64,000 bases of DNA from Thermoanaerobacterium sp. RBIITD (lineage in GTDB: Bacteria > Bacillota > Thermoanaerobacteria > Thermoanaerobacterales > Thermoanaerobacteraceae): assembly GCF_900205865.1 (NCBI RefSeq), contig NZ_LT906662.1, forward strand, positions 2,121,411-2,185,410. Direction: 5' to 3'. Under the pieces are notes generated by a model, which ran no database searches, was not told the DNA's origin, and saw only the letters and a list, made by a program, of their open reading frames with translations. The translations under genes and the position numbers were made by a program. Below, in pieces: positions 1,327-44,066 of the stretch (within the stretch, counting starts at the first letter, position 1; each line of letters begins with the position of its first letter).

Positions 1327-3126
1327 ATGAACGATAAGTTTATATATGTTGAAGATATAATTGCAGAAAAGATAGGTCCAGTATGTCCAGAATTTGATGT
1401 ATGTAATGGAAATCCTTATGTTTTTACTTTGCTGCGTCCACAATTTTGTGGTGAGTTCGAATATGATGAGACTAATGGGCCTGTCATTTGTGATGAAACA
1501 TTTAACGAATTATGTGAAGATTTGATTAAAAAAGCGAAATATGAGAATGTTGATATACTAATAACTCCAGAATATTGCATTTCCCTAGATTTAATTACAA
1601 AAATAATTTCAGATACTTCAGAATCTTTAAAACCAAGTTTAGGAAAAATTTGGTGCCTATGTTGCCAAGGCGCAAAATATTATGATTTCTTACGATATCT
1701 TGACAGGTTTGAAGAATTAGGCGCAAAAGTTATAAGACTTGCTGTTGAAACTGCAACTATAAAGAATTTTGTTAATGCCTTAATTTATGTTTTTATGCTT
1801 ACTGATGGAAGTATATGTATATTACCACAATTAAAGACTCAAATAATGGCTGATAGAGATTTGCTTTGTGAAGGGATGGGAATGAGCGTTGGTAATATTG
1901 TTTATAAATTTGGCAAAGAATGCCCTAATCAACTATGTACGATAATCTGTGCTGATGCACTTAATTTCAGATATATTTCATTAGATAACATAAATAATGG
2001 AAATGAAAATGTTATTTTATTACATCCTCAACTCAACGATAAACCAAGAAATAGCACTTTTTGTAGTTTGAAGTATATTCTTTATAGTAATATTGAATGC
2101 GATAGTTTGATTTATATTACCGCTAATTGGGCATATGGTACCAGGTTAATTAATAGAAATAACCCTCAAGCAGATACAACCTTAAGTATTATAAATCCTT
2201 GGTCTTGCATATATGTTAAAGATGCAGGTAATACTTGGTTAGAACAGCAAAAGGATTTAAGAAAGCATAATTATAGTAAAGGATTAGGCTTTGGATACTT
2301 TAACAGGTATAAATTAAAAGTGTGGTATTGCCTAAAAAACGAAATTATTCACTTGCTTACTATAAAAAAGCCTAAGGGAATTGGACCTAGTGTTGCACAA
2401 CCTAAGCAAGATGTGACAGTTAATAAAGTATATGAAGCGAAAGATAGAAGATACTTAATAGAGAAGGATTATATAAGGAAAGATAATAATTTAAGGGAAT
2501 TACTCGATGTAAGGGAAGATGAAATAGATTATAATTTCCCTTTAAGAGCAGATAAAGAAAATAGAGATATATTTTTTGGAGTATGTCTTGGATATTTAGA
2601 AAAAGATTTAGAAAAAGGCCAATTGGCTATAGTAGATAATGAAGTATGTAATATTGTTAGTATACATATTGATGATGAATGCGAGGAACAAAGATTAAAA
2701 CTAATAAATCATTTTAATATATTAGTCAACCTTCTAAAAGCAGGAAAACTTCCTCCTTATATGAAGGATTTGGTTCGCTCACATATGTTTTCATTAGAGG
2801 ATTGTATTTTTAACCTTGTATCTAAAGATAATAATGTAAGAGCAAAGGCTATAGTATCTTACGTACCTTACGAAACAGATGCAAAGAAAGTAAGTAGTAA
2901 GATGAAAGAAGAGCAGAAAAATAAACATGCCGAACTGAACATGGATATAATAAACGAATTAACCTCTGAGGGAAGAGAAAATGAAATCCGTAAATTTATT
3001 ACAAATACATATGTTTGTGTGTTTACCCAAAAGAGGGGGACAACACAAATTATTAGTTATCCCGAATATAAGACAGAAATAACTTCGTCTGACCGTATGG
3101 TAGATGAAACATCAATTCTGAGGTGA
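1327..3126 (+). CDS. Nitrilase-superfamily (carbon-nitrogen hydrolase) protein, putative defence effector
   Basis: 599 residues. The first ~270 carry the nitrilase catalytic layout: E82 in ITPEYC, K170 in LPQLKTQ, E178 in LLCEG, and C208 in CTIICADAL, followed by NVILLHP. Spacing E-K-C of 88 and 38 residues fits the family. These enzymes hydrolyse or condense amide and nitrile bonds through a thioester on the cysteine. The remaining ~330 residues are unfamiliar and highly charged. The gene starts at an ATG behind AAGGGG, and its stop overlaps the start region of the SMC-like gene, so the two are translationally coupled. The context resembles Lamassu-type cassettes, where a variable effector precedes an SMC ATPase; the substrate is unknown. 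Identification of the fold is fairly secure, the defence role is inferred. Confidence 0.72.
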   Translation: MNDKFIYVEDIIAEKIGPVCPEFDVCNGNPYVFTLLRPQFCGEFEYDETNGPVICDETFNELCEDLIKKAKYENVDILITPEYCISLDLITKIISDTSESLKPSLGKIWCLCCQGAKYYDFLRYLDRFEELGAKVIRLAVETATIKNFVNALIYVFMLTDGSICILPQLKTQIMADRDLLCEGMGMSVGNIVYKFGKECPNQLCTIICADALNFRYISLDNINNGNENVILLHPQLNDKPRNSTFCSLKYILYSNIECDSLIYITANWAYGTRLINRNNPQADTTLSIINPWSCIYVKDAGNTWLEQQKDLRKHNYSKGLGFGYFNRYKLKVWYCLKNEIIHLLTIKKPKGIGPSVAQPKQDVTVNKVYEAKDRRYLIEKDYIRKDNNLRELLDVREDEIDYNFPLRADKENRDIFFGVCLGYLEKDLEKGQLAIVDNEVCNIVSIHIDDECEEQRLKLINHFNILVNLLKAGKLPPYMKDLVRSHMFSLEDCIFNLVSKDNNVRAKAIVSYVPYETDAKKVSSKMKEEQKNKHAELNMDIINELTSEGRENEIRKFITNTYVCVFTQKRGTTQIISYPEYKTEITSSDRMVDETSILR

Positions 3127-3131
3127 GGATT

Positions 3132-6100
3132 ATGGAATTAAAAGAGTTGATTACTAAAAGTGGATTAGAGTGTGAAAATAACTATCCCTTGGATGTAGAG
3201 TTTGATGTAGTTGTTGCAAATTATACATATAAAAAGAAAGTAGTTAGTAAATATATTTTTATTTACTTAAACTATTCTCAATACAAAAAGTATATTGTTG
3301 ATAAAGAGCAGTATAAAAAAATTATTGAGGAAAAATGTCTTGAGCCAATATTTTTTGAATTAGAGGGTGATTTGAGTTGGAACCTATACCTTGTATGTGT
3401 GCTACTAAGCGAAGAATATGAGAAAATTTCATCAGAAGAGTTAGTTGAGTTTGAGAAAAATGAGAAATATGCCCGAAAGTTAGTAATTAATGAGATGCAT
3501 TTTAATAAACTCATCCCTGTTGGCAAGGTTATCACAGGGGATAGTACTAAAGAGATTGTTGACCCCATTGATGATTGGTATAAAGAACTAAATGATAACG
3601 GAATGACTTTTTGTCTTGATACATATTCAAAGTATAAAATAGATGTTTTTTTAAAAGGCAAGAATGTTGAAAGTGAAAACAATTATGATTTAACTTTAAT
3701 TAGTAATGAAGAAAATAAGACACATTCTTTATATAAAATTAAGCAGTTAAAAATGACTGAACAGTTTCGCCCACATTGTTTCGGTTTAAATACAGAACTT
3801 GAATTTGGAGATGTTAATTTACTTTTCGGTGCTAATGGAAGTGGAAAAACTTCTATACTTGAGGCAATAGAATTAGTAATGACAGGGCAAATAAGAAAAA
3901 ACAACACAGGTGAAATAGATAATGATATTTACTACAACGATTTAAAGAGTGATATTACATTACAAATGGAAGGCGATGAAACAGTACATATCCCTAATGA
4001 TATTAGAGAAAGAAAGTCAAGAGAGAGTCGCTTTTATCAAAATAGACAGGGAACAAGGCAAAAAGAAAAATTAAATAAGGCATTTCATCAATATAATTAC
4101 TATTCGTTTGAGGATACGTTTTCATTTTGTTTCTTAGGGGAGCAGCCTAATTATAGTGAAGAATTTAGCAAAATAATTTATGGTGAAAGTACTAAAACAA
4201 TAGAAAAAAATTGGTTAACTTATAAGGAAAAGTTTGAGCAGGAGAAAGCCTCTATTGAAAGTGAAATAAACAGTCTTGAAGATGAGGTTAAACTCTTAGA
4301 AAAAATTGATAGTAGTAGTATCCAGATTAGATTGGAATCACTTTATAATTTATTAAGCGAAGTTAAGTTATGTTTCGAAAGAGTAGAAGATGAAACAAAT
4401 TTATATTCAGTATCAAATTGGTTGCTGCAACTTAATACTAAACTGGCTAAGATAAAAATGTTATTGGAAAATTTCTTGTCTGAAAGTGGAGAGATTGATT
4501 CAAAAAAGGATATAAATGATAGTCTTGATAGAATTACGAGAAATAGAAGCAGTTTAGAGGAAAAATTCGCTTTAATTGAAAAAAATATAATTAACATAAA
4601 TAGTGTTATTAATAAACTATCTGATGAATTACAACAAGCCATAAGTGATGATGTTTTAATAAATGGAGTTATTGAGGATACACAAAATCAAGTAAACACG
4701 TTAAACAATTATGTATTAGAAATTAAGGATATTGAAAAATGTAATTTACTATTGGAGTTAGAACATAAAAAAGTTAATCTAAAGCAAAAAATCAGCGTAT
4801 TAAGTTACTTTAAAGATACATGGGGACATCTTTCTAATGAGCAGATAATTGATAAAAGTCTTGATGATTTAGAAATGCTTATACTTGAAAAGTCAAAGAG
4901 AAAAGATGAGTTGGGAAAAGAAATGAAAAACATTTGTGATAAGATAAAAATTGAGGAAGCAAAAAAGAATAGTATAGATAATATAATTATCCAAGTAAAA
5001 GCATTAGGTATGAGATATTTTAACGAAAGAAGTAATAGCACAAGATGCCCATTATGTGGCACTGATTTTTTCACTAAAGAAAAGTTTCTAGAAGCAATAG
5101 ACAAAGAAATAAAAATGGATGATTCTTACTATAAAAAATTAATTGAGGAAAAAGATGCTGTTGACAAGGAATTGAATAAAGTTAATAAAGAAATTGAATA
5201 TTACACTACTCAACAACAATACATTAATAATCTATATGATGCCTTTAAATTTATTGTTGAGAACAGATTGTTGGAAAATAACACCTGCCCCAATAACAGA
5301 TGTAATGACAACATGATACAGGCGGTTAATGAAGTATTAAGATTACTAGATGTAAATATACAACAATTAAGGAAGTTGGAATACGATATAAGCAGTTTAG
5401 AATTAGCAGGATATAATTACGACTTTATAAAGAGTGCCCTGGATTATATTAATAATATGGCAGGTACTAAAGATAGTAAACTGACTTTAGAGACAATTAC
5501 TTTTGCAAAAAATGACCTGGAAGAAAAACTAAAAGAGAATCTGACTAAAAAAGAGAATTTACAACATAAAATAGATAATTTAAAAAATTTAATAAAAGAT
5601 GAAAAAAGAAAGATTAACGAAGAGGAAACAAATAAGCAGACTTTACAAAAAGATTTGCAATTACTAGATGCATATGAATCCAAAATCAATATTTTAAAGG
5701 AGTTTGCTGATGAAATTGAAGAAAATGATATTTGTATTGAAAATAATACTTCTATAACAAAGGTTAGAAACTTTATACAGACAATATTAGATGAAGTTTC
5801 AATGGTTACTGATAAAGTTAACAATACTATTAAGCAAAAAGAAGATACCGAGAAATTAGAACTATTAAAGCAACAAATTGGGTTAAAGAAACAACAAATT
5901 GAAAAGTGTATACATGCAATCGGTGTTTTAAATAGTCTAAAACTATCTTCACAATATGCGGAAGAATTTATCAGGGAAAATATTTGTGACATAAGTGATT
6001 TATTTATAAGTCTACATTCACCGAGAGAGTTCGATAAACTTGCTTTGAATGAAAAAGGGGAAATTGTTGGATATAGAAAGATAAATGATGTTGAAGTTGA

Positions 6101-6473
6101 AGTGCCTATATATCTAATGAGCGCAGGACAGAGAACGGCAGTTGTAATATCTATCTTTTTTAAGTTGCATATAAGTATGAGAACCGTGCCTAAATTTATA
6201 TTACTTGATGAACCTGTTTCAAATATTGATGATTTAAATATCCTTGGGCTATTGGATTTTTTAAGAGAAATGGCTATATCAAATGGAACTCAAATATTCT
6301 TCACTACTGCAAATTACAATGTGGCCAAATTGTTTAAGAGAAAGTTTAGTTTTCTAAGAGATAAATTCTATGAATTTAAATTTGTAAGATATGGTAATAC
6401 AAAATCAAAAATACGAAGATATACCTATAATGAATTTGAAGATGGAAAAGTAAAAGAGGTTATTATTTCATAA
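3132..6473 (+). CDS. SMC/Rad50-like ATPase, partner of the nitrilase-fold protein (LmuB-like candidate)
   Basis: 1113 residues from the ATG at 3132, preferred over an in-frame GTG at 3123 because GAGGTGA lies 6 bases upstream. A ~230-residue N-terminal region precedes the Walker A motif GANGSGKTS (from residue 233). Long charged, Lys/Glu-rich helices follow, typical of coiled coil, with a hinge-like centre holding two cysteine pairs, CPLC (639-642) and CPNNRC (719-724). The C-terminal head has the ABC signature MSAGQ (996-1000) and Walker B FILLDEP with D1026 and E1027. This is the Rad50/SMC plan: a DNA-binding ATPase whose coils are joined at the tip. The long segment before Walker A is unusual for Rad50. 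Paired with an effector gene it fits a DNA-sensing subunit as in Lamassu; that role is inference. Confidence 0.8.
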   Translation: MELKELITKSGLECENNYPLDVEFDVVVANYTYKKKVVSKYIFIYLNYSQYKKYIVDKEQYKKIIEEKCLEPIFFELEGDLSWNLYLVCVLLSEEYEKISSEELVEFEKNEKYARKLVINEMHFNKLIPVGKVITGDSTKEIVDPIDDWYKELNDNGMTFCLDTYSKYKIDVFLKGKNVESENNYDLTLISNEENKTHSLYKIKQLKMTEQFRPHCFGLNTELEFGDVNLLFGANGSGKTSILEAIELVMTGQIRKNNTGEIDNDIYYNDLKSDITLQMEGDETVHIPNDIRERKSRESRFYQNRQGTRQKEKLNKAFHQYNYYSFEDTFSFCFLGEQPNYSEEFSKIIYGESTKTIEKNWLTYKEKFEQEKASIESEINSLEDEVKLLEKIDSSSIQIRLESLYNLLSEVKLCFERVEDETNLYSVSNWLLQLNTKLAKIKMLLENFLSESGEIDSKKDINDSLDRITRNRSSLEEKFALIEKNIININSVINKLSDELQQAISDDVLINGVIEDTQNQVNTLNNYVLEIKDIEKCNLLLELEHKKVNLKQKISVLSYFKDTWGHLSNEQIIDKSLDDLEMLILEKSKRKDELGKEMKNICDKIKIEEAKKNSIDNIIIQVKALGMRYFNERSNSTRCPLCGTDFFTKEKFLEAIDKEIKMDDSYYKKLIEEKDAVDKELNKVNKEIEYYTTQQQYINNLYDAFKFIVENRLLENNTCPNNRCNDNMIQAVNEVLRLLDVNIQQLRKLEYDISSLELAGYNYDFIKSALDYINNMAGTKDSKLTLETITFAKNDLEEKLKENLTKKENLQHKIDNLKNLIKDEKRKINEEETNKQTLQKDLQLLDAYESKINILKEFADEIEENDICIENNTSITKVRNFIQTILDEVSMVTDKVNNTIKQKEDTEKLELLKQQIGLKKQQIEKCIHAIGVLNSLKLSSQYAEEFIRENICDISDLFISLHSPREFDKLALNEKGEIVGYRKINDVEVEVPIYLMSAGQRTAVVISIFFKLHISMRTVPKFILLDEPVSNIDDLNILGLLDFLREMAISNGTQIFFTTANYNVAKLFKRKFSFLRDKFYEFKFVRYGNTKSKIRRYTYNEFEDGKVKEVIIS

Positions 6474-6584: not shown

Positions 6585-7098
6585 TGTATATACAAAATAA
6601 ACTCCACTCCATGATAGTAAACTTCGCTCTATAAAAATAAAGTTCGTTCCAAAACCTCGCAGTAAATGCAGGATAACTCCTGTTTTGCTGCGGGGTTTGC
6701 TTTTTGGGAGGGTAGACAGGGATAAGGTGTAAGGGTCAAGGAGAATAGATATTGCATTAAAATATTATGATGTTTACAGCCTTGAAAGTACTGATTTTAA
6801 AGGGATTGAGAGAAGTATTGATTATTATATTGATTGAAATATTGATACCACGATGGATAAAAAGAATTAGAAAAAGGATATGAGAAAATGCAACATTATC
6901 CCTTCTTCCTTTCAACTTGCCCCTGAAAAGAACCGACTTTATTTTAAAAATTATTACAAAGATTAAGGAAAAAATGTTAATAAATGGGATAAGAATATGA
7001 GATTTTAGAACGGACTTTATTATCTGGTAGAAATTAGGATATAGGAAAATCAAGGGTTTGAGGGGTGTGGGTGGAGTGGAGATTATTTTAAATATACA
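6585..7098. mobile_element. Non-autonomous mini Tn7-like element, copy 1 (~514 bp)
   Basis: Bounded by TGTATATAC at the left and its inverted counterpart ATATACA at the right. Inside the left end lie three contiguous 20-bp units (6594-6653; consensus ATAAAGTTNNTTCTATGATA). Reading inward from the right, three related sites are spaced out (near 7070-7090, 7008-7030 and 6928-6948). One end with tandem sites and the other with spaced sites is the layout of Tn7 ends bound by TnsB. The interior has no convincing gene, only a terminator-like hairpin. The flanking pentamers (aacta left, tcagg right) do not match, so no target duplication is visible. The right end cuts an IS110 gene. A second copy lies at 8479-8962. 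Confidence 0.62.
6652..6705 (+). terminator. Hairpin plus T-tract inside mini-element 1
   Basis: AAACCTCGCAG pairs with CTGCGGGGTTT (one G-T pair), with a smaller inner stem CAGGA/TCCTG, then TTGCTTTTT. It would terminate transcripts coming from the SMC gene. The same structure is conserved in the second element. Confidence 0.6.
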
Positions 7099-7637
7099 TC
7101 AGGGAAATATATATCAAGCCATCTTGCAACCCGGTTCATTATCTTATTTAAGTCCTTTGTAAGCCTTTCCCTTATGTCCACTGCAATTCTAAGCTCGCTG
7201 TATATACCCTCAGGTATATTAGGTTCAACATATCTTCCATCTTTAATTAGCATTGCAATTGTCTTAGGGTCTTTCCTGTCATTTTTAGTTGGCGAGTTAT
7301 CATCAAATTCCTTACTTCTCTTTACGTGAAATGGATTTACCAGTACCACCTTATGGCTCTTATCTCTAAGAAACTGTGCAAAGCAGAGCCAATAATGGCC
7401 TGTTGGTTCCATACCAACCATCAGATGCTCTTTGTTGCTTTTATTCATAATCTCTGCAGCCCATTTAAAGAATCTTTCCATTCCATCACTGTCATTGCTA
7501 AATTCAATACGCTTACCGTATTCTATTCCTCTAAAATCAAAAGCTCTTGCGTGGTGTGTCTCTTTAGCAATGTCTACACCTACAATTAATGTCTTTTCTG
7601 TTATTTGCAATATCTTTAAATTTTGGTTATACTTCAT
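7083..7637 (-). pseudogene. IS110-family transposase, 3'-truncated
   Basis: 184 residues against about 400 for intact family members. The N-terminal DEDD domain is clear: GVDIAKETHHA with the first Asp, the glutamate in VGMEPTGHYW, and NDRKDPKTIAMLI. It starts at an ATG behind AAGGAGG. The protein stops a few codons after PDVYLK where the TGTATAT end of the mini Tn7-like element begins, so the C-terminal serine domain is missing. No remainder is present on the far side of that element (6474-6584), so this is a deletion or rearrangement rather than a clean insertion. IS110 elements use a bridge RNA from the noncoding end; the 7638-7800 region could hold a relic of that end, but I cannot delimit it. 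Confidence 0.8.
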
Positions 7638-7806
7638 ATTAGGTACCTCCTTGTTATTTGAGAGTCGTGTTCATGAACAATCGACATCTTGTATTTTATC
7701 AGGAGGTACTTTTTATTTAAAATCTTATATTTTTTTATTACAGGAATGCTCCAAATATAATTATGGGCTTTGAGAAAAACAATATATTTGAATTGGAGGA
7801 AATTAT

Positions 7807-8478: not shown

Positions 8479-8962
8479 TGTATATAAACAATAAATTCCA
8501 ATCCATGATAATAAACTTGGCTCTATAAAAATAAAGTTTATTCTAAGACCTCGCAGTAGATGCAGGATAACTCCTGATTTGCTGCGGGGTTTGCTTTTTT
8601 GTAGGGGGGAGAGGGCTAAGGTGTAAGGGTTAAGGGATTAGAATTTTTATTGGTTACAGCCTTCAAACTATTGATTTTAAAGGGATTGAGGAAAGTATTG
8701 AAGATAATATTGATATAGCAACTGAAAGGATGGAATAAAACCTTAAACCTTACCTCATGAAACTTATCCCTATTTTCCTTTCAAAACATCCCTATTTGGA
8801 ACCGACTTTATTTTAAAAATTAGTACAAGGATTAAGGAAAAAGTGTTAATAAATGGGATAAAAATATGAGATTTTAGAGCGGACTTTATTATCTGGTAGA
8901 AATTAGGATATAGGAAAATCAAGGGTTTGAGGGGTGTGGGTGGAGTTTATTTTAAATATACA
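8479..8962. mobile_element. Non-autonomous mini Tn7-like element, copy 2 (~484 bp)
   Basis: Same plan as copy 1: left TGTATATAA followed by three contiguous 20-bp units (8488-8547), the conserved hairpin (8547-8600), and a right end ATATACA with spaced sites near 8945, 8885 and 8810. The two copies share long stretches such as the one around 8805-8945, matching 6930-7075. Flanks are cattg and tagtt, with no target duplication. Interestingly tagtt is the reverse complement of the aacta beside copy 1. No coding potential seen. Confidence 0.62.
8547..8600 (+). terminator. Hairpin plus T-tract inside mini-element 2
   Basis: GACCTCGCAG/CTGCGGGGTT stem with an inner CAGGA/TCCTG stem and TTGCTTTTTT. 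Counterpart of the hairpin at 6652-6705; also downstream of the phosphatase gene. Confidence 0.55.
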
Positions 8963-9003
8963 TAGTTAATGGCAAGGATTTTTTGGGATAAGGATTAAGG
9001 GGA

Positions 9004-9113
9004 TGTATATGAAATAATAAAGTTTGCTCTGTGATAATAAAGTAAGTTCTATGATAATAAAGTCAATTCTATAATAATAAAGTTGATTCTATAATAATAA
9101 AGTTAGTTCTTAA
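9004..9113 (+). repeat. Orphan Tn7-like transposon end with five tandem 20-bp units
   Basis: TGTATATGAA at 9004 is followed by five perfectly phased 20-bp units at 9014, 9034, 9054, 9074 and 9094, each beginning ATAATAAAGT and ending near TTCTATAATA. They match the units in the two mini-elements. Contiguous identical-sense sites next to a TGT terminus fit TnsB-type transposase binding sites. The element this end belongs to would extend to the right; no matching opposite end was found in the window. Not a CRISPR: no spacers. Confidence 0.65.
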
Positions 9114-9268: not shown

Positions 9269-9915
9269 ATGATTCTGTGGGGGATTTTCATTAGTGCATT
9301 TTTAATAGGTTTTTCAGGAGCAATGATGCCTGGGCCTATGTTGGGGGTTACAATTGACGGCAGCCTTAAAAAAGGGTGGACAGCAGGCCCTTTGACAGTA
9401 TTAGGACATGGAATCCTGGAACTTATACTAATTGTTATCATGACATTCGGGCTTAAAGATTTCTTCGCTAATCCGACAGTTGCAGGACTTATCGGATTAT
9501 TTGGCGGTGCTTTTCTTGCATGGATGGGGTATGAAATGATAAAGTCTGGTATAAATAAATCAGTTTTTCTGGAGAATCAAAGAGCAGGGAATAGTGCAGG
9601 TATGAGAAATCTTGTATTAGAAGGAGCACTTGTAAGCGCTACTAATCCATACTTCATTCTCTGGTGGGCGTCAACGGGGATGGAATCAATACGACAGTCT
9701 TATACTTCAGGGTTAATTGGTGTTTTGTTCTTTTTTATAGGACATATTTTATCGGACTTTGTATGGTATACAGCAATATCCACAGCATTTTACAGAGGCA
9801 AGAAATGATAAGTGATGCAGTGTATCGCTGGATTATTTTATTGTTGGGCATATTTATTATAGCATTTTCAATCTATTTTATAGGCAGCGGATGGAAGATG
9901 CTGCAAATCTCATGA
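9269..9915 (+). pseudogene. LysE/RhtB-family exporter, one frameshift
   Basis: Family members are ~200-residue membrane exporters of amino acids or related compounds. Frame 2 encodes 179 residues with the N-terminal FSGAMMPGPMLGV signature and ATNPYFILWW, and several hydrophobic spans. It stops at 9806-9808, and the expected last helix (WIILLLGIFIIAFSIYF) continues in the next frame to 9915. A single missing base near 9804 explains both halves; a sequencing error would look the same. Start ATG behind AGAGAGG. Confidence 0.8.
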
Positions 9916-9987: not shown

Positions 9988-10524
9988 ATGGGAATTGATA
10001 TGCATGAAGAAGCAAGAAAAATAGGTAAGTTAGTAGGGGAGATGTCTTGTACATTGCAAATTGTAAAGAAATTAAAAGAAATGGGTTTTAGTATAAAACA
10101 AGTGTTACAGACTATTGAGTTGCCAGAGAGTGCTGTTTTGCGGGTTTTTGATGGCAAAGAAAATATTAGAAAAATAGCAGAGGATACTGTAAATCAGCAA
10201 ATAGCAGAAAATGGCGGTAAAATTCCAGAAGAGCGGGACTTTATAAAATGGGTAGAGAATGCGCTTGAATATTTTATGCCGCCACAAGATAAGGAAGAAC
10301 TAATACCTCTTAAAGAACCACAGAGGCTCACTTGTGAGCAGTGGGCTCAGTATACTCCATACGAAAACAAATTGGAACTCTTTGATGGACAGGCGCTGGG
10401 GGATTTAAGAGAACGGGAAAATATGATAATTGCCCTTGTATACAACATCGGACTGGAACACTTTATTAAAATACTTCCGCAGGAATCTAAAGCAATATTG
10501 AAGGAACTTTTAAATGGGCAATAG
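9988..10524 (+). CDS. Hypothetical protein, 178 residues
   Basis: Not recognised. Mostly helical and charged; residues 5-55 (EARKIGKLVGEM, then KQVLQTIELPESAVLRVF) resemble the N-terminus of small Rpn/PD-(D/E)XK-associated clostridial proteins with a C-terminal helix, but no nuclease residues are present. No signal peptide or membrane span. An internal ATG at 10000 is an alternative start. Stands alone on the plus strand. Confidence 0.6.
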   Translation: MGIDMHEEARKIGKLVGEMSCTLQIVKKLKEMGFSIKQVLQTIELPESAVLRVFDGKENIRKIAEDTVNQQIAENGGKIPEERDFIKWVENALEYFMPPQDKEELIPLKEPQRLTCEQWAQYTPYENKLELFDGQALGDLRERENMIIALVYNIGLEHFIKILPQESKAILKELLNGQ

Positions 10525-12969: not shown

Positions 12970-13560
12970 CTAAGATGCATTCGAAGAACTGTTAAAATAT
13001 TCAACTTTTGATTTTAATCTATATGAAGGTCCCTTTATTGATATAACATGCGAATGATGAAGTAATCTATCTAATATTGCATTGGCTAATGTTGCTGATC
13101 CAAATACTTCTGCCCAATTTGAAAAGGGCATATTAGTTGTAATAATTGTACTATGTTTTTCATATCTTTTAGATATTAGCTGAAAAAATATATTTGAAGC
13201 ATCTGTGTCTATTGGTAAATACCCTACTTCGTCTATTATTAACACCTTATATTTTGAAAAATGCTTTAATCGGATTTCTAAACGGTTTTCTGCTAAAGCC
13301 TTTTTTAATTGAGTCATCAATTCTTGAAAATGAACGAAATATGTAGAATATCTGTGTTTTGCACATTCTATCCCTATGGCGGTGGCAAGATGTGTCTTGC
13401 CTACACCTGGAGTACCTACAAACAATATATTTTCGTTATTTTCTACAAATCTTAAACTTTTTAAATCAAGAATTTCTTGTTTGTTTATGCTTGGTTGAAA
13501 TTCAAAATCAAAATCATCAAGTTCTCCTAAATTGTTTAATAGCTTGGTATAGTTACTCAC
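12970..13560 (-). CDS. istB: IstB-like ATPase of IS21 element
   Basis: 196 residues, with Walker A GTPGVGKTHLA, Walker B VLIIDEVGYLP and TTNMPFSNW, the AAA+ helper that selects target DNA for IstA. It begins at a GTG immediately after the istA stop. Family proteins are ~245-260 residues; here the N-terminal ~50 residues before EDFDFxFQPS-type sequence are mostly missing, so the protein may be impaired. The translated sequence is identical to that of copy 2. Confidence 0.85.
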   Translation of the reverse strand: MSNYTKLLNNLGELDDFDFEFQPSINKQEILDLKSLRFVENNENILFVGTPGVGKTHLATAIGIECAKHRYSTYFVHFQELMTQLKKALAENRLEIRLKHFSKYKVLIIDEVGYLPIDTDASNIFFQLISKRYEKHSTIITTNMPFSNWAEVFGSATLANAILDRLLHHSHVISIKGPSYRLKSKVEYFNSSSNAS

Positions 13561-13568
13561 ATTTTCAC

Positions 13569-14756
13569 CTACCTATGCAATAATTTATCCAATTCGTTAA
13601 GATTATTTGTGCATATTTGTTCAATATCCTCCTTGCTTTTGATAAGATTTTCTATTAGCTCTCTATAATGAGATTCGTGATAATTTATCTTTTTATCACT
13701 TAATATATGGACAGATATCAAGTCTGTGTTAAAATATACATGTAATTCATTTTCTACTGTTTTAAGAGTTACAGTTTTATTTATTGAGTATCTACTATAT
13801 TTGTAATATATCATAGAATCTTTATGGACAGTTGCTTTTTGTTCGAAGTTCATATAACTTTCTATGATATCGTTACTTGGCAGAGGAGATAGATACTCCT
13901 TTTCTTTTTGGAATAATATTATCGGTTGTATCCCTGTTGACTGATTTGTAGATTGATTAACTTTTTTGTTTATTTCACCAATTATCTTTATTAAATCTTC
14001 TTCATTCTCAAATTCACCATTGTATGGCAGTAGCCAGTCAATAAATTTATTAGATGATTCCACATTTCCTTTGGTATATGAGTGTCTTGGCTTACATAAG
14101 CGTATCTTAAAGTCAAAATCATTTGCAAATGCTTTTATTTTATTATTTATCTTCCTCCCCTCGTTTGTTATATCAACTATTGTTTTCATATTGTCAAAAA
14201 GTATTTCATCTGGAACGCCTCCTGTAGCTTTAAAAGCGTTTATCAAGCATTCAATTACATCTTGTTGTGTTTTTGCTTTCCTATATTCAAAGTAGCAATA
14301 TCTTGAATATCCAAGCTTATAGTTAAAAACATTAAAAATGAATTCTTCTCCATATTTAGAAACTAATTTTATCTCTTCTTTCCAATCTACCTGTGCTTGC
14401 TTTTCCGCAGGAGTTTCAAATCGTGGATGACCACTTACTTTTTTAGCAGGTTTCAAGCCTTTTCGCTTTACATATTTGTTGAAATTAGAATATGTTCCAA
14501 TATCATAATTTTTAGAAACAAAGTATTCATATACTCCCTTTACCGTAACCCCCTTTATTTCAAGTTTTGCTTTTATTTCATCGTAGTATTTGTCTAATTT
14601 GCTTTGTTTGTTTCTTGTTTTTGGTTTGCCTTCATATCCTTCATAATACTTTTTAACAGTTCTTCTATCTACTCCATATTCCCTTGCTAGCTCTGAAAAA
14701 TTAGGTTTTATCTCCATAGCCTTTAATATGCTAATTTGACCTAATAGATTTTTCAT
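13569..14756 (-). CDS. istA: IstA transposase of IS21 element, read through from an upstream primase
   Basis: 395 residues from the ATG at 14756, chosen because AGGAGGG lies just before it. It has an N-terminal helix-turn-helix (ELAREYGVDRRTVKKYYEG) and the DDE catalytic core with Asp in AQVDWKEE, Asp in LFDNMKTIVD and Glu in KGNVESSNKF. It cuts and joins IS ends with IstB. The frame remains open upstream through the IS end into the primase gene, giving a 920-codon chimeric ORF (13569-16331). Confidence 0.85.
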   Translation of the reverse strand: MKNLLGQISILKAMEIKPNFSELAREYGVDRRTVKKYYEGYEGKPKTRNKQSKLDKYYDEIKAKLEIKGVTVKGVYEYFVSKNYDIGTYSNFNKYVKRKGLKPAKKVSGHPRFETPAEKQAQVDWKEEIKLVSKYGEEFIFNVFNYKLGYSRYCYFEYRKAKTQQDVIECLINAFKATGGVPDEILFDNMKTIVDITNEGRKINNKIKAFANDFDFKIRLCKPRHSYTKGNVESSNKFIDWLLPYNGEFENEEDLIKIIGEINKKVNQSTNQSTGIQPIILFQKEKEYLSPLPSNDIIESYMNFEQKATVHKDSMIYYKYSRYSINKTVTLKTVENELHVYFNTDLISVHILSDKKINYHESHYRELIENLIKSKEDIEQICTNNLNELDKLLHR

Positions 14757-14815
14757 TGCTGGTATCCCTCCTACGAACAGAAGGATACCAAATTTATGTA
14801 CAAATTTGTACATTT

Positions 14816-16331
14816 TTTGGGCATTGTCTTTAGAAATCTGGACTGCCATTGCTCTTAATCTTTGATTAACTTGTTTATATGGGATTTTGTTGAGCAATCC
14901 TAAGGTGCAGAATAAATTGATGTATTTATTTATATTAACAACACTTTTATTTCTTTTTCCTGCCAGGTACCGATTGGAAAAGAAAAATATGCTTTCTCCA
15001 TTTGTGCTAAAGAAGCGGTTGATAATATTTTCTTTACCTATTTCAAGAATATCCATCAACAGAGAAATACCGAACCTAATGATACGGTTTAGATTTGGGA
15101 ATTCATCTTTTTTTTCTCCAAATTGGCTCAAAAGCATCATGTTGATTTCAAATTTTTTGCTTTGCTCATTTATCCAAGTTGAATCTTCTAATTTAATATG
15201 AAAATATTCAATCAACTTCCTTATAGCGGTTGAAGTATCACAGTTTTCTTTAATTTTAAATATATCAATAATATCCATACCTTTGCCAGCATTATAGCAA
15301 GTGCAAACGGGAGAATTACAAAAATACTTGTAATATCCACCTTTACTTTTTATGACAGCACTAGGATTATTGTCTTTATGGAATATGCATTTAAAGTTTA
15401 AATTGGGCTTCGCATCAATACCCGGGTAACTTATTAAATCCTGCTGTTTTAAAAACGGAATCAAGTCATCATACTGTAAGACTGGAGAAGAATGAACTTT
15501 GGGGCTTTCTTTTCGCAAATTGTTTATCTCAGTCCTCACAGTAACAGGTTTTATTTCAGTACTTTCTGTATTACCGACCAATTCAATGATATTGTATCCT
15601 ATAGCAGCAGCAATATCTTCTTGAGTGTATTTTACATCTGTATTTAGGTATATACATTTTATCGTGAAAGGGTCATTTGGATTTTTAAGATGCTGATAGT
15701 TTATAATTCTTAAAACCCTGTTAAATTCTTTTACGTTGTTGTCAGCATGTTCATGTCTTTCTTCAAGAGCAGCAAAATATTCAATTAGATTTTCCTGAAG
15801 CGGGGTAAAAGCGTCTAATCTTTGTGGTTTCTCAAGGTTAAGCAGCCAATATACATGAAAGCCGTTCTTGGTTTCTACAATAATATTCGGGTTCAGTTTA
15901 AAATTCTCCAATTTCTTTAAAAAAGCAATCTTATATTCTTCTATTTCTTCCTTGCTCCTGTACTCATATACAGTCTTTCCTTCAGAGTCCGTTGTTAATT
16001 TTCCACCGTCTATTTTTGGAACTTTCCTAAAATCCATATCAATAAAGTGTGCGTTTATTCTTTTAATAGAATTCTTTTCCTGCCCGCCGCTATTTACAAC
16101 AAAATAAACACTATAGCCTTGTTTCTGATACCTTTTAAAGATTTTTTGAATAAGCGGATATTCTAAATCATCGTCTAAAGTTAATATACAGTCAAATTTT
16201 TTTGCTATACGCTTCTTTTCTTGAATAAGCCTAAAATATACATTTTCGTTTGGTTTCTTAAATAGTGATAAAAATTCAAAATCTGTAATAGTTAATACTT
16301 CACGGTTTTCAAAATCAATGTTTAAACCCAT
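14816..16331 (-). pseudogene. RepB/prim-pol-type DNA primase, 3' truncated by the IS21 element
   Basis: About 505 codons. The N-terminal region has the AEP primase features VNAHFIDMDFRK-like (INAHFIDMDFRKVP) and VETKNGFHVYWLL; a CHC2-like zinc segment follows (KCIFHKDNNPSAV, then CNSPVCTC). Such primases are found on plasmids, phages and integrative elements and may also act in island replication. The gene ends in RAMAVQISKDNAQK where the IS sequence begins and continues in frame as IstA. The missing C-terminus is not on the other side of the element. Confidence 0.72.
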
Positions 16332-17055: not shown

Positions 17056-17082
17056 GACTAAACATGAAGGTTGATAAAGGCA

Positions 17083-17994
17083 ATGAACTGCACAGAATTG
17101 GCTTTAAAAGAATTTCTGGTCACAGCAAAGATAAATACATATGCTGGAGATGGAGTTCTTTGTGCATCTTTAAGGCTGAACTCAAAGGATTTACATTATA
17201 ATGAAGGGAATTTACTATACATAGACTATTACTTCGGGAGCGCCGATTTCATTGGTGAAGAAGTGGTATTTGAAAATCAAAAGCCCATATGGGGAATGAA
17301 TTACTATGGAAAGATGCTCATTGACGAAATTCCGTCAGGATTCAGTTCTCCAAAATCTGGATATTTGTCACAATATAATCTGTATTTCCAGTTTACAATC
17401 ACAGGCTACGCCAAACTCCTGGAACCCAATGTTGTTGATACAAATGAGGCAGTCAAGCAGATGGAGCAACTGGCTCGAAGGTACTCACCGCAGCAAATTA
17501 ATTGGAGATTTAACCCTATCATTCTTAGCATCAAGGGAGAGAACGAGCCGATACCAGATAACTTTGCAAGTGCAAGGCTAAAGGTGTTTGAGGCTTTATG
17601 CAGGGATATTTCTTCCTTTGGGGTCAATCGCTGTACCATAAGTTTTCTTTGCCTGTATAAAAAAGTAGAACAAAGAATGAAAGAATCGAAGTTTACTTAT
17701 TTAATTCCTTCACAACAACAGCAGATTGAGTTAGTAAGCCAATTTGTGGAGATTGCTGATAAATATGGAGTTACTATTTATACATGCACCAGCCCCATCA
17801 TTGAAGGAGTACCTGGGGTGAAGAAAGGCCATTGTATAGATGGGGCCTACCTTGGAGCATTGTTCGGTAAGAGAGCCTCCCATGCAAAAGATGCATGGCA
17901 AAGAAAAGAATGCGGATGTACCAGGTCAAAAGATATTGGAGCATATAGTGGACAGAGTTGCGGGCATGGGTGCCTTTATTGCTATGCGAGATAA
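17083..17994 (+). CDS. Chimeric DUF5680 / DUF1848 protein
   Basis: 303 residues; ATG 17083 preferred to an upstream TTG at 17071. Residues ~1-85 (KEFLVTAKINTYAGDG, YIDYYFGSADFIGEE, PIWGMNYYG) match DUF5680. From about residue 95 the sequence (YFQFTITGYAKLLEPN, WRFNPIIL, ISFLCLYKK) is DUF1848, ending in a cysteine cluster CGCTR...CGHGCLYCYA that could bind a metal cluster. The first ~100 residues of DUF1848 are absent, so an in-frame deletion probably joined two neighbouring genes. Whether the hybrid works is doubtful. Confidence 0.7.
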   Translation: MNCTELALKEFLVTAKINTYAGDGVLCASLRLNSKDLHYNEGNLLYIDYYFGSADFIGEEVVFENQKPIWGMNYYGKMLIDEIPSGFSSPKSGYLSQYNLYFQFTITGYAKLLEPNVVDTNEAVKQMEQLARRYSPQQINWRFNPIILSIKGENEPIPDNFASARLKVFEALCRDISSFGVNRCTISFLCLYKKVEQRMKESKFTYLIPSQQQQIELVSQFVEIADKYGVTIYTCTSPIIEGVPGVKKGHCIDGAYLGALFGKRASHAKDAWQRKECGCTRSKDIGAYSGQSCGHGCLYCYAR

Positions 17995-18050
17995 TTGAAT
18001 ATGTTATTGAAATACAGTTTCCTGTCAGAAAAATTATTTGTTCATCTGTA

Positions 18051-18079
18051 TTGACAATATAGGAAATATATGTAATAAT
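18051..18079 (+). promoter_or_regulatory. Promoter of the methyltransferase leader
   Basis: TTGACA at 18051-18056 and TAATAAT at 18073-18079, spacing 16. It drives a ~220-base leader before the methyltransferase gene. Confidence 0.6.
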
Positions 18080-18130
18080 ACACTAAAAAGTGAGTATGCT
18101 TAAGCATTGATGTGCGAGCAGATAGGGACT

Positions 18131-18157
18131 ATGAATGTCCTACACGAATGGTTATAA
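18131..18157 (+). promoter_or_regulatory. Possible 8-codon leader peptide
   Basis: ATG...TAA encoding MNVLHEWL, preceded closely by AGGG, with its stop codon overlapping the upstream arm of a terminator hairpin. This arrangement is known from ribosome-mediated attenuation of resistance genes, in which a stalled ribosome opens the terminator. Translation is not proven; the ribosome site is only three bases away. Confidence 0.4.
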
Positions 18158-18200
18158 CCCTTCGGAGTCACTCTTATGAGTGATTCTGCGGGGTTTTTTA
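18156..18200 (+). terminator. Terminator/attenuator ahead of the methyltransferase gene
   Basis: AACCC pairs with GGGTT, and inside it AGTCACTC pairs with GAGTGATT over a TTAT loop, followed by TTTTTT. It lies ~105 bases before the methyltransferase start and ~80 after the promoter, so it could be a regulated stop or the end of a short RNA. Confidence 0.65.
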
Positions 18201-18304
18201 TATTTAAAAAATTATAAGTGCTTTAATTTCTTTTAAATGCTTCGCCTGCGCCTTATATTGAAAGATATACTGTGGGCAAAATCTGAATTTGGGGGGAAGT
18301 TTAT

Positions 18305-19153
18305 ATGTACAACCCAGAACAAATCAAGAATTTTTATAACAATTATGGGATGCGGGAGTGGGAGAGATTTAATTTAACCGCATACGATAGAATCAACTAT
18401 CTTCTGCATATGCACTTTCTTCAAGGACATATTGGTAAAGGTAAAAAAGTTCTTGATGCTGGTTGTGGAGCAGGAAGGTTTAGCATAGCAATTGCCCAGT
18501 CTGGAAGTGAAGTTACTTTGTTAGATATTTCTGATGAACAAATAAATATCGCAAGGAACAAGATTTTAGAAAGTGCATTATCAGGTAGAGTTTCTAATTT
18601 TATAGTTGGTGATTTGTGTGAAATGTCTATGATAGAAGATGAAACTTTTGATACAACTGTATGTTACGGGGTTGCACTGAACTACCTTTTTGATAATTTA
18701 AGTAAAGGCGTGAGCGAACTTGTTAGAGTCACAAAAAGAGGTGGGACAATACTCATTAGTGTAAATAGTAAATGGGGAGTTATTCATTCTTTACTCGGAA
18801 AAGAGAACTTTGATATCTTAGATTTTTTTGGACGGCCTGATTATTGGTATATTGATAAAGTTGTGGATACAGGTGATTTACCTCAGCACCCTGGTGTTTC
18901 CCATCCACCAAGGCATTTTTTCGATGCAGAGGAACTCATGGGAGTATTACAGAAAGCAGGGCTGAAAGATATTGCGTTGGGGAGCAGTCCATGCCTGACA
19001 GCGGGATTCAGTTCCAAGGTTGAATTGCTTGAGAAAGATGATAAAGCATGGGAAACAATTATTCGATTGGAAGAGAAATCGCATTGCCTCCCTACAATGT
19101 TAGACTACGGAGAGTTTCTACTGGCTAAAGGTGTAAGAGAATATTTGATTTGA
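18305..19153 (+). CDS. Class I SAM-dependent methyltransferase
   Basis: 282 residues. Motif I VLDAGCGAGRF (from residue 49), followed by the acidic end of strand 2 (TLLDIS) and VTKRGGTILISV, define a Rossmann-fold methyltransferase using S-adenosylmethionine. Substrate unknown; nothing marks it as DNA- or rRNA-specific. GGGG precedes the ATG. The attenuator-like leader and a GNAT acetyltransferase 20 bases downstream hint at a resistance role, which is inference. Confidence 0.8.
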   Translation: MYNPEQIKNFYNNYGMREWERFNLTAYDRINYLLHMHFLQGHIGKGKKVLDAGCGAGRFSIAIAQSGSEVTLLDISDEQINIARNKILESALSGRVSNFIVGDLCEMSMIEDETFDTTVCYGVALNYLFDNLSKGVSELVRVTKRGGTILISVNSKWGVIHSLLGKENFDILDFFGRPDYWYIDKVVDTGDLPQHPGVSHPPRHFFDAEELMGVLQKAGLKDIALGSSPCLTAGFSSKVELLEKDDKAWETIIRLEEKSHCLPTMLDYGEFLLAKGVREYLI

Positions 19154-19172
19154 AATGAAGGGGGGTTTTTAA

Positions 19173-19757
19173 ATGGGAAATGACAGTTATTTTTTTCAGA
19201 CAGAAAGGTTGATTCCGAGAGTTTATACGAAAGAGGATGTTGATATAATCCATCCTGTTATAAGTAGAAGGGAAATTGCGGAGACGACAATTATGATTCC
19301 ACACCCTTACCCTAAAGAAACTGTATACTGGTGGATAGATTATATCCAAAAAAATATTGAAAAAGAAGAAGGTTTTGAATTTGGTATATTTAGTAAATCT
19401 GACCCTAAAACATACATTGGCAATATAGGACTTATTGGTATATCAAAACAGCATAACAATGCTGAGTTAGCCTACTTTATTAATCCAGATTTATGGAACA
19501 TGGGATATGCCACAGAAGCATGTAAATGGATAATCGACTTCGGATTTGATAAATTAGGATTAGAACGTATTTATGGAAGATGCATGGCAAAAAATATTGC
19601 TTCAAAAAGAGTAATGGAAAAGTCAGGTCTATCATATGAAGGTATTGCTAAACATGAGGTTTTAAAATGGAATAACTATGAAGATGTCTGCAAATATGGG
19701 ATAATTCGTAGCGAGTGGGAAAACAGAAAAACGGATAAGTCAGTAGTTAAATATTAG
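19173..19757 (+). CDS. GNAT acetyltransferase (RimJ/RimL-like)
   Basis: 194 residues. ELAYFINPDLWNMGYATEA contains the acetyl-CoA-binding strand and Gly-rich loop, with LGLERIYGRCMAKNIASKRVMEKSGL typical of the Rim family that acetylates protein N-termini or small amines. ATG behind AAGGGGGG. Probably cotranscribed with the methyltransferase upstream. Confidence 0.82.
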   Translation: MGNDSYFFQTERLIPRVYTKEDVDIIHPVISRREIAETTIMIPHPYPKETVYWWIDYIQKNIEKEEGFEFGIFSKSDPKTYIGNIGLIGISKQHNNAELAYFINPDLWNMGYATEACKWIIDFGFDKLGLERIYGRCMAKNIASKRVMEKSGLSYEGIAKHEVLKWNNYEDVCKYGIIRSEWENRKTDKSVVKY

Positions 19758-19970
19758 TTTTAACTACAAAACAGGATTATTGGGAATGCCCTGCTGGACG
19801 TATGAAATTTGGTGAGATACATGAAGAGCCTTTTATAAGAGGAATGATATTAATGGGGCGCTTATGCAAAAAAGACAAAAATTCTATTAATCATTACCAT
19901 GGCATTAATATTTATATTAAATAATTACATTTTACCTAGATTCAATTTGAAGACAAATAGGAGGAGATTT

Positions 19971-20414
19971 ATGTTTATAGAGAATAATCCTGAGGATAAG
20001 ATTTATAGAGATTTAATTGATTTGGCTTTTGATATCTGTGATGAGTTCATTTTAGTAGTAAGACGTGATATGGATATATCAGACAATATGAATAATGTTC
20101 TCGAAAAATTAAAGCCATTTTTAAAAGAAGTAAAAGAACAGTTTGAATGGCCTGGAACAATAACTTTGTATGAACAACCAGCATTAGTATACTATTATAG
20201 TACCGATAACAACGCTAAAGAAATATTAAAGCAAGCAACAAATTCCTTGCATGAGTGGCTTCAACCTCACCTGCCAGAAGATTTATGTTTTATAAAAAAT
20301 TCTAAGCCGTGGCTAATAAATACTTCACATGAAAGGTTAAGTTATATTTTAACAGAAGACAAAGAAGATATTGACCGAATTATAAAAATCAAAGGGTTAA
20401 AAATAAAATTATAG
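19971..20414 (+). CDS. Hypothetical cytoplasmic protein, 147 residues
   Basis: The ATG at 19971 has AGGAGGAG directly upstream, so it is preferred over a longer frame from 19899. Not recognised. Acidic, mixed alpha/beta, with EQFEWPGTITLYEQPALVYYY in the middle. No catalytic motif or membrane span. The preceding 19758-19970 may hold a short relic (CPAGRMKFGEIHEEP) of another gene. Confidence 0.55.
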   Translation: MFIENNPEDKIYRDLIDLAFDICDEFILVVRRDMDISDNMNNVLEKLKPFLKEVKEQFEWPGTITLYEQPALVYYYSTDNNAKEILKQATNSLHEWLQPHLPEDLCFIKNSKPWLINTSHERLSYILTEDKEDIDRIIKIKGLKIKL

Positions 20415-20766
20415 TATATGTAATTTATTTTAAAATTTTACTTTTAGGTGCAATGCCATAATTTATAGAGTTAATATGATAAAAGGACAGATGCAGGAAA
20501 CACCCGACATTATAATGACAAAAGAAAAATCATTTATTTTGATATCAGTTATTGATTTTTATATAAGTTGTGAGATAAAACCATGAAAAGTATGATGCAT
20601 TTTTCTGTGCCTATTGCAATGAATTGGTAGAATCCAAATAATGTCTTTTCTTATATTATTAGGCTTAGCCTGTAGTTTAGTGAGAAAGAAAGGGTAGGAA
20701 ATTTTACAACTAAAAAGCCAACCTCAAAGATTTGTAAAAATATTTTTTACAAACCGTATCTTTTTT
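20415..20766. other. Gene-free stretch with inverted repeat
   Basis: No gene. A short open segment around 20600-20640 (FFCAYCNELVESK) looks like the tail of a lost zinc-binding protein. TTTGTAAAAA and TTTTTTACAAA at 20731-20753 form an inverted repeat just upstream of the TA-module promoter. Confidence 0.35.
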
Positions 20767-20785
20767 TACACTTTTGGTGTATAAT
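20767..20785 (+). promoter_or_regulatory. Operator overlapping -10 of the HTH/ImmA/PIN operon
   Basis: TACAC-ttttg-GTGTA (20767-20781) overlaps TATAAT (20780-20785), 20 bases before the HTH gene. A palindrome on the -10 box suggests autoregulation by the HTH protein. Confidence 0.5.
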
Positions 20786-20804
20786 ATAGCAGGAGGTGTA
20801 AAAA

Positions 20805-21179
20805 ATGAGTATGGAATTATTATTCGAAAATAGAAAACTAATTGGCAAAAATATATTGAATATCATTAAAAACAATGGGTATACAAAGTCTTCCTTCTCA
20901 AGGCTTACTAATATTTCAAGGCCGACTTTAGATAAACTAATCAAAGGAGAAGTTGACAGCCTTGCCACCTTTAAAACCCATATACAAAAAATTTTAGAAA
21001 GCCAGGATATAAACGAAGAACAATTATTAAATTATGTTCCAAAATACAAGCCAAAGAAAGAACCTATATTTGCATTATCCGATAATGCTCCCGAGAATCA
21101 TATACTAAAACCTAAGACACGAGAAATGTTTGATATTCTAAATGATATAGTTCATCTATGTGAACTTTATTATAATTAA
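20805..21179 (+). CDS. HTH antitoxin-like regulator
   Basis: 124 residues. An XRE-like helix-turn-helix near residues 14-50 (NNGYTKSSFSRLTNISRPTLDKLIKG). The C-terminal half (PKTREMFDILNDIVHLC) is probably the interaction part. AGGAGGTG lies 9 bases before the ATG. First gene of a three-gene run with ImmA/IrrE peptidase and PIN proteins; it probably represses the operon and may be the target of the peptidase. Confidence 0.72.
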   Translation: MSMELLFENRKLIGKNILNIIKNNGYTKSSFSRLTNISRPTLDKLIKGEVDSLATFKTHIQKILESQDINEEQLLNYVPKYKPKKEPIFALSDNAPENHILKPKTREMFDILNDIVHLCELYYN

Positions 21180-21193
21180 GCAGGTGTATAGTT

Positions 21194-21988
21194 ATGTCAG
21201 AATTAATAACACGGAAGAATCTTGAGCAGGTTATTGAAAAAAATAAACTGATTAAAGATGACATATCAAGGCTAATTAAAGATTTTACAGTCAGATTTAA
21301 TAAGTCGGGAGTAACGGGGCAGGATAAACTATCTTTTTCGGTATTAAAAGAGAACCATTTAATTCAGATTCCTATCGATGATGAGTATTGGGGCGGGGCT
21401 ATTATTACAAAGGGAAATATTAAAATACCAGTTATCAATACTGCTCAGCCCCGTGTTTATCAATATTTTGTTGCATGGCATGAAATATATCATTTGTTCT
21501 ATGACCCTAGTTTAAGTGATGAGACCCATAATATTGCCGTTGATATGGATTTAAATGAGAGAAGAGCAGATTATTTTGCTGCAAAAATAATTTTTGGCAA
21601 TGTGTACGATTACTACTATTCATTAGACGATGAAGATTTTATCGATAGAGTTATAAAATGCATGGATGTATATAAGGCACCATATAAGGCGGTACTGATA
21701 GAACTATTTGAAGAAGCCTTTACAAAATATAATGATTTGGATTTAAAAGAAAAAATCCTTGAGCATTTTGATAATAAGCCTGAGGACTTAGTGCAAAAAT
21801 TTATAGATTTAGAATTGGATGCAGAGTTAGTGAAACCCTCCTATGTTGTAAGTTTAGGTGGATTGGAGAAAAAGATACAAAGTGTTATGAAGGAGAACCT
21901 AGATGTTTCCTACCATAAAGATAACTATCAGTATCTACTCACGCTAAAGAGAAAAATTAAAAAAGCAGTGGAGGACCTTGCCAAATGA
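21194..21988 (+). CDS. ImmA/IrrE-family metallopeptidase
   Basis: 264 residues. The zinc site HEIYH (H96, E97, H100) in WHEIYHLFYDP is followed by a downstream acidic helix NERRADYFAAKIIFG, the third ligand region. ImmA/IrrE proteins cleave or antagonise paired HTH repressors, relieving repression. Its TGA overlaps the ATG of the PIN gene (ATGA), so production is coupled. Confidence 0.8.
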   Translation: MSELITRKNLEQVIEKNKLIKDDISRLIKDFTVRFNKSGVTGQDKLSFSVLKENHLIQIPIDDEYWGGAIITKGNIKIPVINTAQPRVYQYFVAWHEIYHLFYDPSLSDETHNIAVDMDLNERRADYFAAKIIFGNVYDYYYSLDDEDFIDRVIKCMDVYKAPYKAVLIELFEEAFTKYNDLDLKEKILEHFDNKPEDLVQKFIDLELDAELVKPSYVVSLGGLEKKIQSVMKENLDVSYHKDNYQYLLTLKRKIKKAVEDLAK

Positions 21989-22854
21989 ATGGAGAAAGCA
22001 TAAATGACTTAAAAAAATACCTTTCCATGGGCAGGTCTCTCAAAGTTTGCATCCTGGATAATAACTCTGTTGAATTTTAAACATGGGTACGCAAGAGCGT
22101 CAGCCTTGAAAAGATATTTGAGCAATATGATATGATTCTTATTCCCCAATGGGTATGGACTGAGGTTTGTGATAGCGAAAATAGAAAAAGTTACATAAAT
22201 GATTTAAAACATTATTCGAAGGTCCAAATTATAGATGAAGTCGATTATTTAACATTGGTGGATTACAAAGAAGCAGAATTATACTATCTGTTCCTGTACT
22301 GCTGTTACAATGTGAGCAGGCTTGTTAGTTTTATCAAGAAAAACATCTTAAAGAACAGATCTGTAGAAGACTTGGACCCCTATGAAGAATGGCTAAATAT
22401 ATTTTATGAAGAGGGACTAGACCAAAGGAAACTTTCAAACGGCAGGATTCAAAGGAAAAATGCAGGAGAGATATCTATTTCCGTTTTAAGTTATATCCTT
22501 TCTTATTATTATAATGGAAACATTGATATTATAACCATCTTTAGCAGTGACAGGGATACCTATGAATTTATTTCTAAAGCAAAGGAAATGCTTTATAAAG
22601 ATGAGCGCTTTAAAGACAGAATTAACACTTCCATAACTTTCAAATCAAATGATTTTCTGATTTATGAATGGACAAGGCTTGGATATATAGATGAACATAA
22701 TATTGATACCTTTGTTCAAAATTACAGGCAGACGAAGAGAATAAAATTCACGAGAAAAAAGCAGGATAATTCAATTGATGAGCAAGATAGATTGATAGAA
22801 AATACTGCCTTTTTAGAGATGTTAAAGGACAGCACAATACATTTAATCTTTTGA
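21985..22854 (+). pseudogene. PIN-domain protein with one internal stop
   Basis: 289 codons with TAA at 22078-22080. Before the stop: CILDNNSVEF, with the first PIN aspartate. After it: WVWTEVCDSE (conserved Glu), AGEISISVLSYIL, and SSDRDTYEF with the SxDxD pair. These are the metal-binding acids of PIN ribonucleases. Apart from the stop the frame is intact, so the mutation is recent, a readthrough case or a sequencing error. Translation could restart near ATG 22132, but without the first Asp the nuclease would be inactive. Toxin of a coupled HTH/ImmA module by inference. Confidence 0.7.
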
Positions 22855-23125: not shown

Positions 23126-23203
23126 AAAATACCTCCTTATGTTCAGAGTTACATAGAATCTTATCTGACTACTACATATTATTTCAAGTGAGAATTTACG
23201 TTT

Positions 23204-23226
23204 AAAATAAAGTTGGTCCATGATAT
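23204..23226 (+). repeat. Solitary Tn7-like end site near TnsA relic
   Basis: AAAATAAAGTTGGTCCATGA fits the 20-bp unit of the arrays at 6594, 8488 and 9014. It also contains a TATAAT-like box and could be a promoter. A similar single site is at about 26947-26970. Confidence 0.4.
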
Positions 23227-23258
23227 AATGGAAATAAATTAAAGAGGAATGTATTAAG

Positions 23259-23319
23259 TGCCATTGACACAGACACCCTTAGAGGCGTTCAACTGTTGTC
23301 AGTGGCATTTTTGTTTTTT
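23259..23319 (+). terminator. Hairpin with T-tract
   Basis: TGCCATTGACA pairs with TGTCAGTGGCA (one G-T), followed by TTTTTGTTTTTT. It lies between the solitary end site and the TnsA-like segment; no gene precedes it on the plus strand. Confidence 0.55.
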
Positions 23320-23384
23320 AGAGGATAGAAGAATAAAGGGAGAAGGGATTAGGAACAAGAGTTCTTACAAAAAGAATACACCAT

Positions 23385-26067: not shown

Positions 26068-26075
26068 ATTTTCAC

Positions 26076-26825: not shown

Positions 26826-27055
26826 TGCTGGTATCCCTCCTACGAACAGAAGGATACCAAATTTATGTACAAATTTGTACATTTTTATTTTCCACTTTTC
26901 GCAATTCTTATTTTATCATTTATAGTTTTTATATATAATGATGGTATAAAATAAAGTTGACTTTGTGATATAAGAAACGGATAAAATTAATATATACTGC
27001 AAGTTGCAGTTGTAAAATAATATGAACTATACTTATACTATGGGGGTATATAAAA

Positions 27056-29620: not shown

Positions 29621-29634
29621 AAGAGGTGTTATAT

Positions 29635-29865: not shown

Positions 29866-29880
29866 TGGAGGTGGATGCTG

Positions 29881-44065: not shown

Positions 44066-44066
44066 A

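Follow-up and report, generated by a model that had tools for sequence, protein, structure and literature searches.

A phased array of 20-bp repeats in the glmS island of a Thermoanaerobacterium strain is most likely the right end of a decayed Tn7-like element

A short array of perfectly phased repeats, seemingly without an opposite end, raises the question of which mobile element it once delimited in the chromosome of Thermoanaerobacterium sp. RBIITD, and of what became of the rest of that element. The array, designated A2, occupies positions 9004–9112 of the window, the whole stretch of 64,000 nucleotides analyzed here (2121411–2185410 of contig C1 of this genome, G000; seven-digit coordinates below refer to the contig). 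It opens at 9004 with TGTATATGAAAT, followed by AATAAAGTTTGCTCTGTGAT, AATAAAGTAAGTTCTATGAT, AATAAAGTCAATTCTATAAT, AATAAAGTTGATTCTATAAT and AATAAAGTTAGTTCT. The opening TGTATATGAAAT (9004–9015, plus strand; TGTATAT at 9004) is a putative transposon terminus, read from the sequence, whose TGT is variable among relatives. The five direct 20-bp units behind it (9013–9112, plus strand) were delimited by the unit pattern and by site comparison and are putative TnsB-binding sites of a right end. They start at 9013, 9033, 9053, 9073 and 9093, share the core AATAAAGTnnnnTCT and are spaced by exactly 20, 20, 20 and 20 bp.

The initial annotation had reported five phased 20-bp units beside TGTATAT, and this was confirmed by the exact spacing and by the statistics: a two-unit pattern gave seven matches in the window with up to three mismatches, whereas 100 shuffles that kept the dinucleotide composition yielded none. 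Arrays of about 20-bp TnsB sites are an accepted mark of Tn7-like ends (PMC8649781), and the stretch 9004–9112 has the layout of a right end, with TGT followed by phased sites oriented into the element. When the whole genome (3.40 Mb, one contig) was searched, A2 matched only four places, namely A2 itself, 2129912, 2105298 and 2105859, all within 25 kb beside glmS. No units were found in unrelated intergenic regions of this genome, all copies lying in the glmS island.

This island setting, like the tns sequence at 3–1077, had been overlooked in the earlier reading. The glmS gene ends 16 kb left of the window (stop at about 2105265) and is followed by a mini-element (ME1, about 2105286–2105811), another array (A1, from 2105863), cargo, tnsA, and broken copies of tnsB, tnsC and tnsD. 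Inside the window, the order continues with the end of tnsD, cargo (1327–6473), the mini-element ME2, a partial IS110, a histidine phosphatase gene, the mini-element ME3, a 41-bp spacer that is conserved in relatives (8963–9003) and A2. A comparison of gene order past glmS in 19 genomes places the return to shared chromosomal genes about 89 kb beyond the stop codon in G000, far closer in relatives of its genus such as G002 (about 7 kb) and G003 (48 kb), and at about 0.2 kb in G010. Since the chromosomal genes resume only at about 89 kb, the whole window lies inside one attTn7 island. The first unit was located 32–35 bp past the glmS stop in G000, G003, G005, G006 and G011, which places the terminus about 25 bp after the stop, at the Tn7 (attTn7) position. 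Vestiges of a decayed mini-element of another type (TGTATATTTC... and CATGCGAAAAAAGTG) were also observed at the attTn7 position in locus L251 of G035 (about 20–30 bp after glmS) and in G001, and their sequence suggests yet another end family.

Genes for tnsA, tnsB, tnsC and tnsD/tniQ are all present in the island (Pfam TnsA, Mu-transpos_C, TniB, TniQ and TnsD). The tnsA-tnsB-tnsC-tnsD operon runs into the left edge of the window, where the 3' part of the broken tnsD was identified at 3–1077 on the plus strand (Pfam TnsD, tblastn). The genes tnsB, tnsC and tnsD are broken in this genome, and the island tnsB, the sole full-length tnsB match in the genome, carries several stops. In the relative G003, by comparison, tnsA, tnsB, tnsC and tnsD are open at glmS (297, 721, 551 and 623 aa). 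Part of a second tnsA survives at 23203–23489 (plus strand; tblastn, 74% identity to positions 35–92 of TnsA), preceded by one unit. An assignment of this remnant (23.3 kb) to the element of A2 was considered but is uncertain, since its neighbours at 17071–22854 match the G003 element, and the right end there is of a three-unit type.

Just left of A2, two mini-elements of about 0.5 kb each are built of the same unit as A2. By site comparison, ME3 (8479–8962, plus strand) consists of TGT, right-type units, a terminator-like hairpin, inverted left-type units and ACA, and ME2 (6585–7098, plus strand) has the same anatomy, so that both possess TGT...ACA ends with inverted arrays of about 20-bp sites. 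The ACA end of ME2 cuts an IS110 gene. A truncated IS110-family transposase gene and its flank (7099–7745, minus strand; Pfam DEDD_Tnp_IS110) abut the mini-element, and an intact copy at another genomic site, 99% identical, matches this sequence from directly after the ACA at 7098. The left end of ME2 is thus confirmed independently by the IS110 breakpoint; the other half of the cut IS110 was absent from the genome near the island. The hairpin (CCTCGCAG...CTGCGGGGTTTGCTTTTT) lies just inside the right end of each mini-element (6665–6705 and 8560–8600) and could stand in for the terminator of glmS where an insertion has displaced it.

A site model trained on the units was used to call right-type pairs (20-bp spacing) and ACA-ended left-type triples (about 78-bp spacing). 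Right-type pairs were observed only facing away from glmS, and ACA-ended triples only facing back toward it; the few weak triple calls on the plus strand lay within the tandem arrays themselves. Neither pairs nor triples were found in five Markov-shuffled sequences. Right ends outnumbered left ends and also occurred alone, and a right-type array was present 320–520 bp before almost all of the left ends observed. Many left ends were flanked by TAGTTAG, the reverse complement of CTAACTA.

The initial annotation had found no opposite end for the array. This holds for A2 itself: by triple pattern and site model, no left-type triple was detected up to 114 kb to its right, and the triple pattern with site scores revealed no left end for it in 140 kb of its own genome beyond those of the mini-elements. 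The statement did not hold for the surroundings, where ends of the same unit family facing the opposite way (6929–7098 and 8798–8962) had been missed. Of the two fates suggested for the other end, lost or lying outside the window, loss is supported as far as the search extended, to 114 kb on the right. As no inverted partner left end was found for 9004–9112 in these searches, A2 is called a decayed or orphan end and not a complete element. Moreover, a comparison of all ends by eye detected no 5-bp target duplication pairing with A2 and no convincing pair in this genome. A 5-bp spacing between adjacent ends was observed in Lutispora only; there, ACTCG separates the left end TATACA from the TGT of the right end that comes next, the pattern that a tandem insertion with 5-bp duplication should leave.

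Arrays homologous to A2 were recovered in G001, G003, G004, G032, G035, G065 (Lutispora, two contigs), G066, G067 and G063; a class-wide search spanned 37 genomes. These arrays hold 2 to 6 units, the number differing mostly by whole 20-bp steps, and the 41-bp spacer joins the array to the left end of a mini-element at every locus whose flank can be read, G035 excepted. The TGT terminus is kept in A2, G001, contig C46 of Lutispora and G067 and is altered in the rest, including A1 of G000; it is not conserved in about half of the array copies of the relatives, and the end is therefore probably dead in many of them. The lysE gene is the recurring cargo downstream of the array, with another gene between array and lysE in the case of A1. 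The last unit is interrupted by an IS in G026 and G033, both of which retain lysE. Such array decay beside a persisting lysE is the picture expected of a transposon end that is dying out and whose cargo has been kept.

The placement of the cargo to the right of the array was borne out by the orientation of the units and by the downstream lysE conserved in relatives. The first cargo gene right of A2 encodes a LysE-type translocator (9269–9808, plus strand; Pfam LysE), and the order array-lysE is common to G001, G035 and G067. A conserved cargo ORF without a Pfam family (9988–10524, plus strand) also has a 93.8% identical copy after array A1. The cargo of the tnsABCD element (1327–6473, plus strand) comprises a 599-aa ORF, again without a Pfam family, and an SMC-like ATPase, a pair also present after tnsD in Defluviitalea. 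Weak similarity of the ATPase to LmuB and mad3 was detected, and the two genes are a possible Lamassu-like defence pair. Additionally, the cargo block 28337–46268 contains restriction-type specificity and methyltransferase-like genes, a gene for a 1355-aa protein, a HerA/mad8-like ATPase gene (41737) and a mad6-like kinase gene (44067), and by its predicted products resembles an anti-phage defence system of the MADS type, borne by the glmS island. A 920-aa ORF at 13569–16331 is an apparent fusion of a primase-like N-terminal part with an IS21 IstA (rve domain), probably formed by in-frame IS insertion, and a second IS21 copy with a shorter istA is located at 25477–26882.

With these data, A2 is most likely the right end of a Tn7-like transposon that would have inserted downstream of glmS with lysE and additional cargo to its right, and whose own left end and transposase genes would later have been lost or degraded. 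The presence of A2-type units in the ends about 25 bp after glmS and beside tnsABCD supports this reading; the loss of TGT in several homologous arrays, A1 among them, and the want of a left end or 5-bp target duplication that can be paired with A2 count against it. Each 20-bp unit would be a binding site for a TnsB-family transposase, and TnsB bound to the five units would act with TnsA to cut at TGT, making 9004 the cleaved terminus, whereas TnsD would direct the insertion downstream of glmS (attTn7 targeting). Repeated insertions between glmS and the previous element would build the island and displace the older end, and later insertions, including the mini-element 8479–8962 and the tnsABCD element, would have pushed A2 25 kb from glmS. 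Given that its own left end is missing and that tnsB, tnsC and tnsD are broken, A2 should be able to move in this genome only with proteins and a left end provided by an active relative. Of the larger Tn7-like element initially proposed, the Tn7-like nature of the end was upheld, its units being those of the ends at glmS and beside tnsABCD. A single, simple large element was not, and A2 is best read as one decayed end within a pile-up of several Tn7-like elements.

Because an array of the A2 type stands nearly always at a fixed distance after a mini-element left end, it might instead be the inner part of a compound right end of about 640 bp (right-type units, mini-element interior, inverted units, spacer and array) moving as one module. 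Mini-element, spacer and array do occur together in G000 (twice), G003, G004, G032, G066 and Lutispora (twice), but the mini-element is found without the array in G000 (ME2), G006, G020, G022, G062 and Lutispora, its left end is a real breakpoint in IS110, and no such module is needed by Tn7 right ends; we regard this alternative as unlikely. An operator function, in which a regulator, possibly TnsB itself, would act on the lysE promoter via the repeated sites, appears quite improbable. The position of A2 just upstream of lysE (9269) and the single unit upstream of tnsA would suit it, whereas A2-type units are also found in end arrays beside glmS without lysE, another gene parts the array from lysE in A1-type loci, lysE persists in G026 and G033 although the IS destroyed the array, and promoter-like matches were no commoner than in shuffles.

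Hardly any weight can be given to A2 as part of the IS21-type elements of the window or as a plasmid-type iteron set. IS21-type istA/istB genes are indeed present at 12970–16331 and 25477–26882, but these copies have no unit arrays at their flanks, save for one weaker single unit at 26947, and a reading of A2 as an IS21 end was rejected on this ground. Both versions are also at odds with units that track glmS and tnsABCD across genera, and no replication gene was seen nearby among the ORFs read. The megatransposon of Thermoanaerobacter kivui (PMC12056078) was also considered and set aside, being IS1182-based and unrelated.

Returning to the Tn7-like right end, its repetition may bear on how such islands change. 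In G003, the tns genes sit between the end at glmS and a second right end, the two being identical over 634 bp. In the five tnsABCD loci with sequence reaching far enough (G000, G003, L060, L064 and L065), the cargo behind tnsD extends up to a direct copy of the right end, with CTAACTA (CCAACTA in G000) before that copy. We tentatively propose, as a rather doubtful idea, that the transposition core of this Tn7-like lineage lies between directly repeated right ends, where RecA recombination could reduce an element to a 0.5-kb solo mini-Tn7 that keeps both ends, and could allow the core circle to reinsert at any right end. Such a collapse would account for orphan arrays like 9004–9112 and for the excess of right ends. 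Two-ended mini-elements and direct right-end repeats would be natural minimal substrates, offering a testable route for island growth and collapse. The locus also shows that a decayed Tn7-like element can be recognized from its end arrays alone, and that layered islands bearing defence-like cargo, about 89 kb long in this case, occur at glmS in Thermoanaerobacterium-type clostridia.

The locus resembles Tn7 and the Tn7-like elements targeted by TnsD to glmS (attTn7) in its tnsA-B-C-D order, its TGT...ACA ends, a right end with a direct array of sites of about 20 bp, a left end with three spaced sites, and an insertion about 25 bp after glmS with the right end nearest to that gene. Unlike in Tn7, the array of this locus is made up of five to six units in strict 20-bp register and stands apart from its own left end and machinery, and tnsABCD is located about 10 kb from the glmS-proximal end, whereas in Tn7 it is right beside the end. 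Tandem Tn7-like islands at glmS (PMC8649781) likewise show several right and left ends in a row past one glmS, and a 5-bp gap from a left end to the next right end is seen in Lutispora; here, by contrast, right ends exceed left ends, and nearly all left ends observed belong to mini-elements some 0.5 kb long. Such arrays and multiple ends were described by Benler et al. (2021; PMC8649781), and A2 is a well-preserved, essentially ordinary example of a kind of Tn7-like right end already known.
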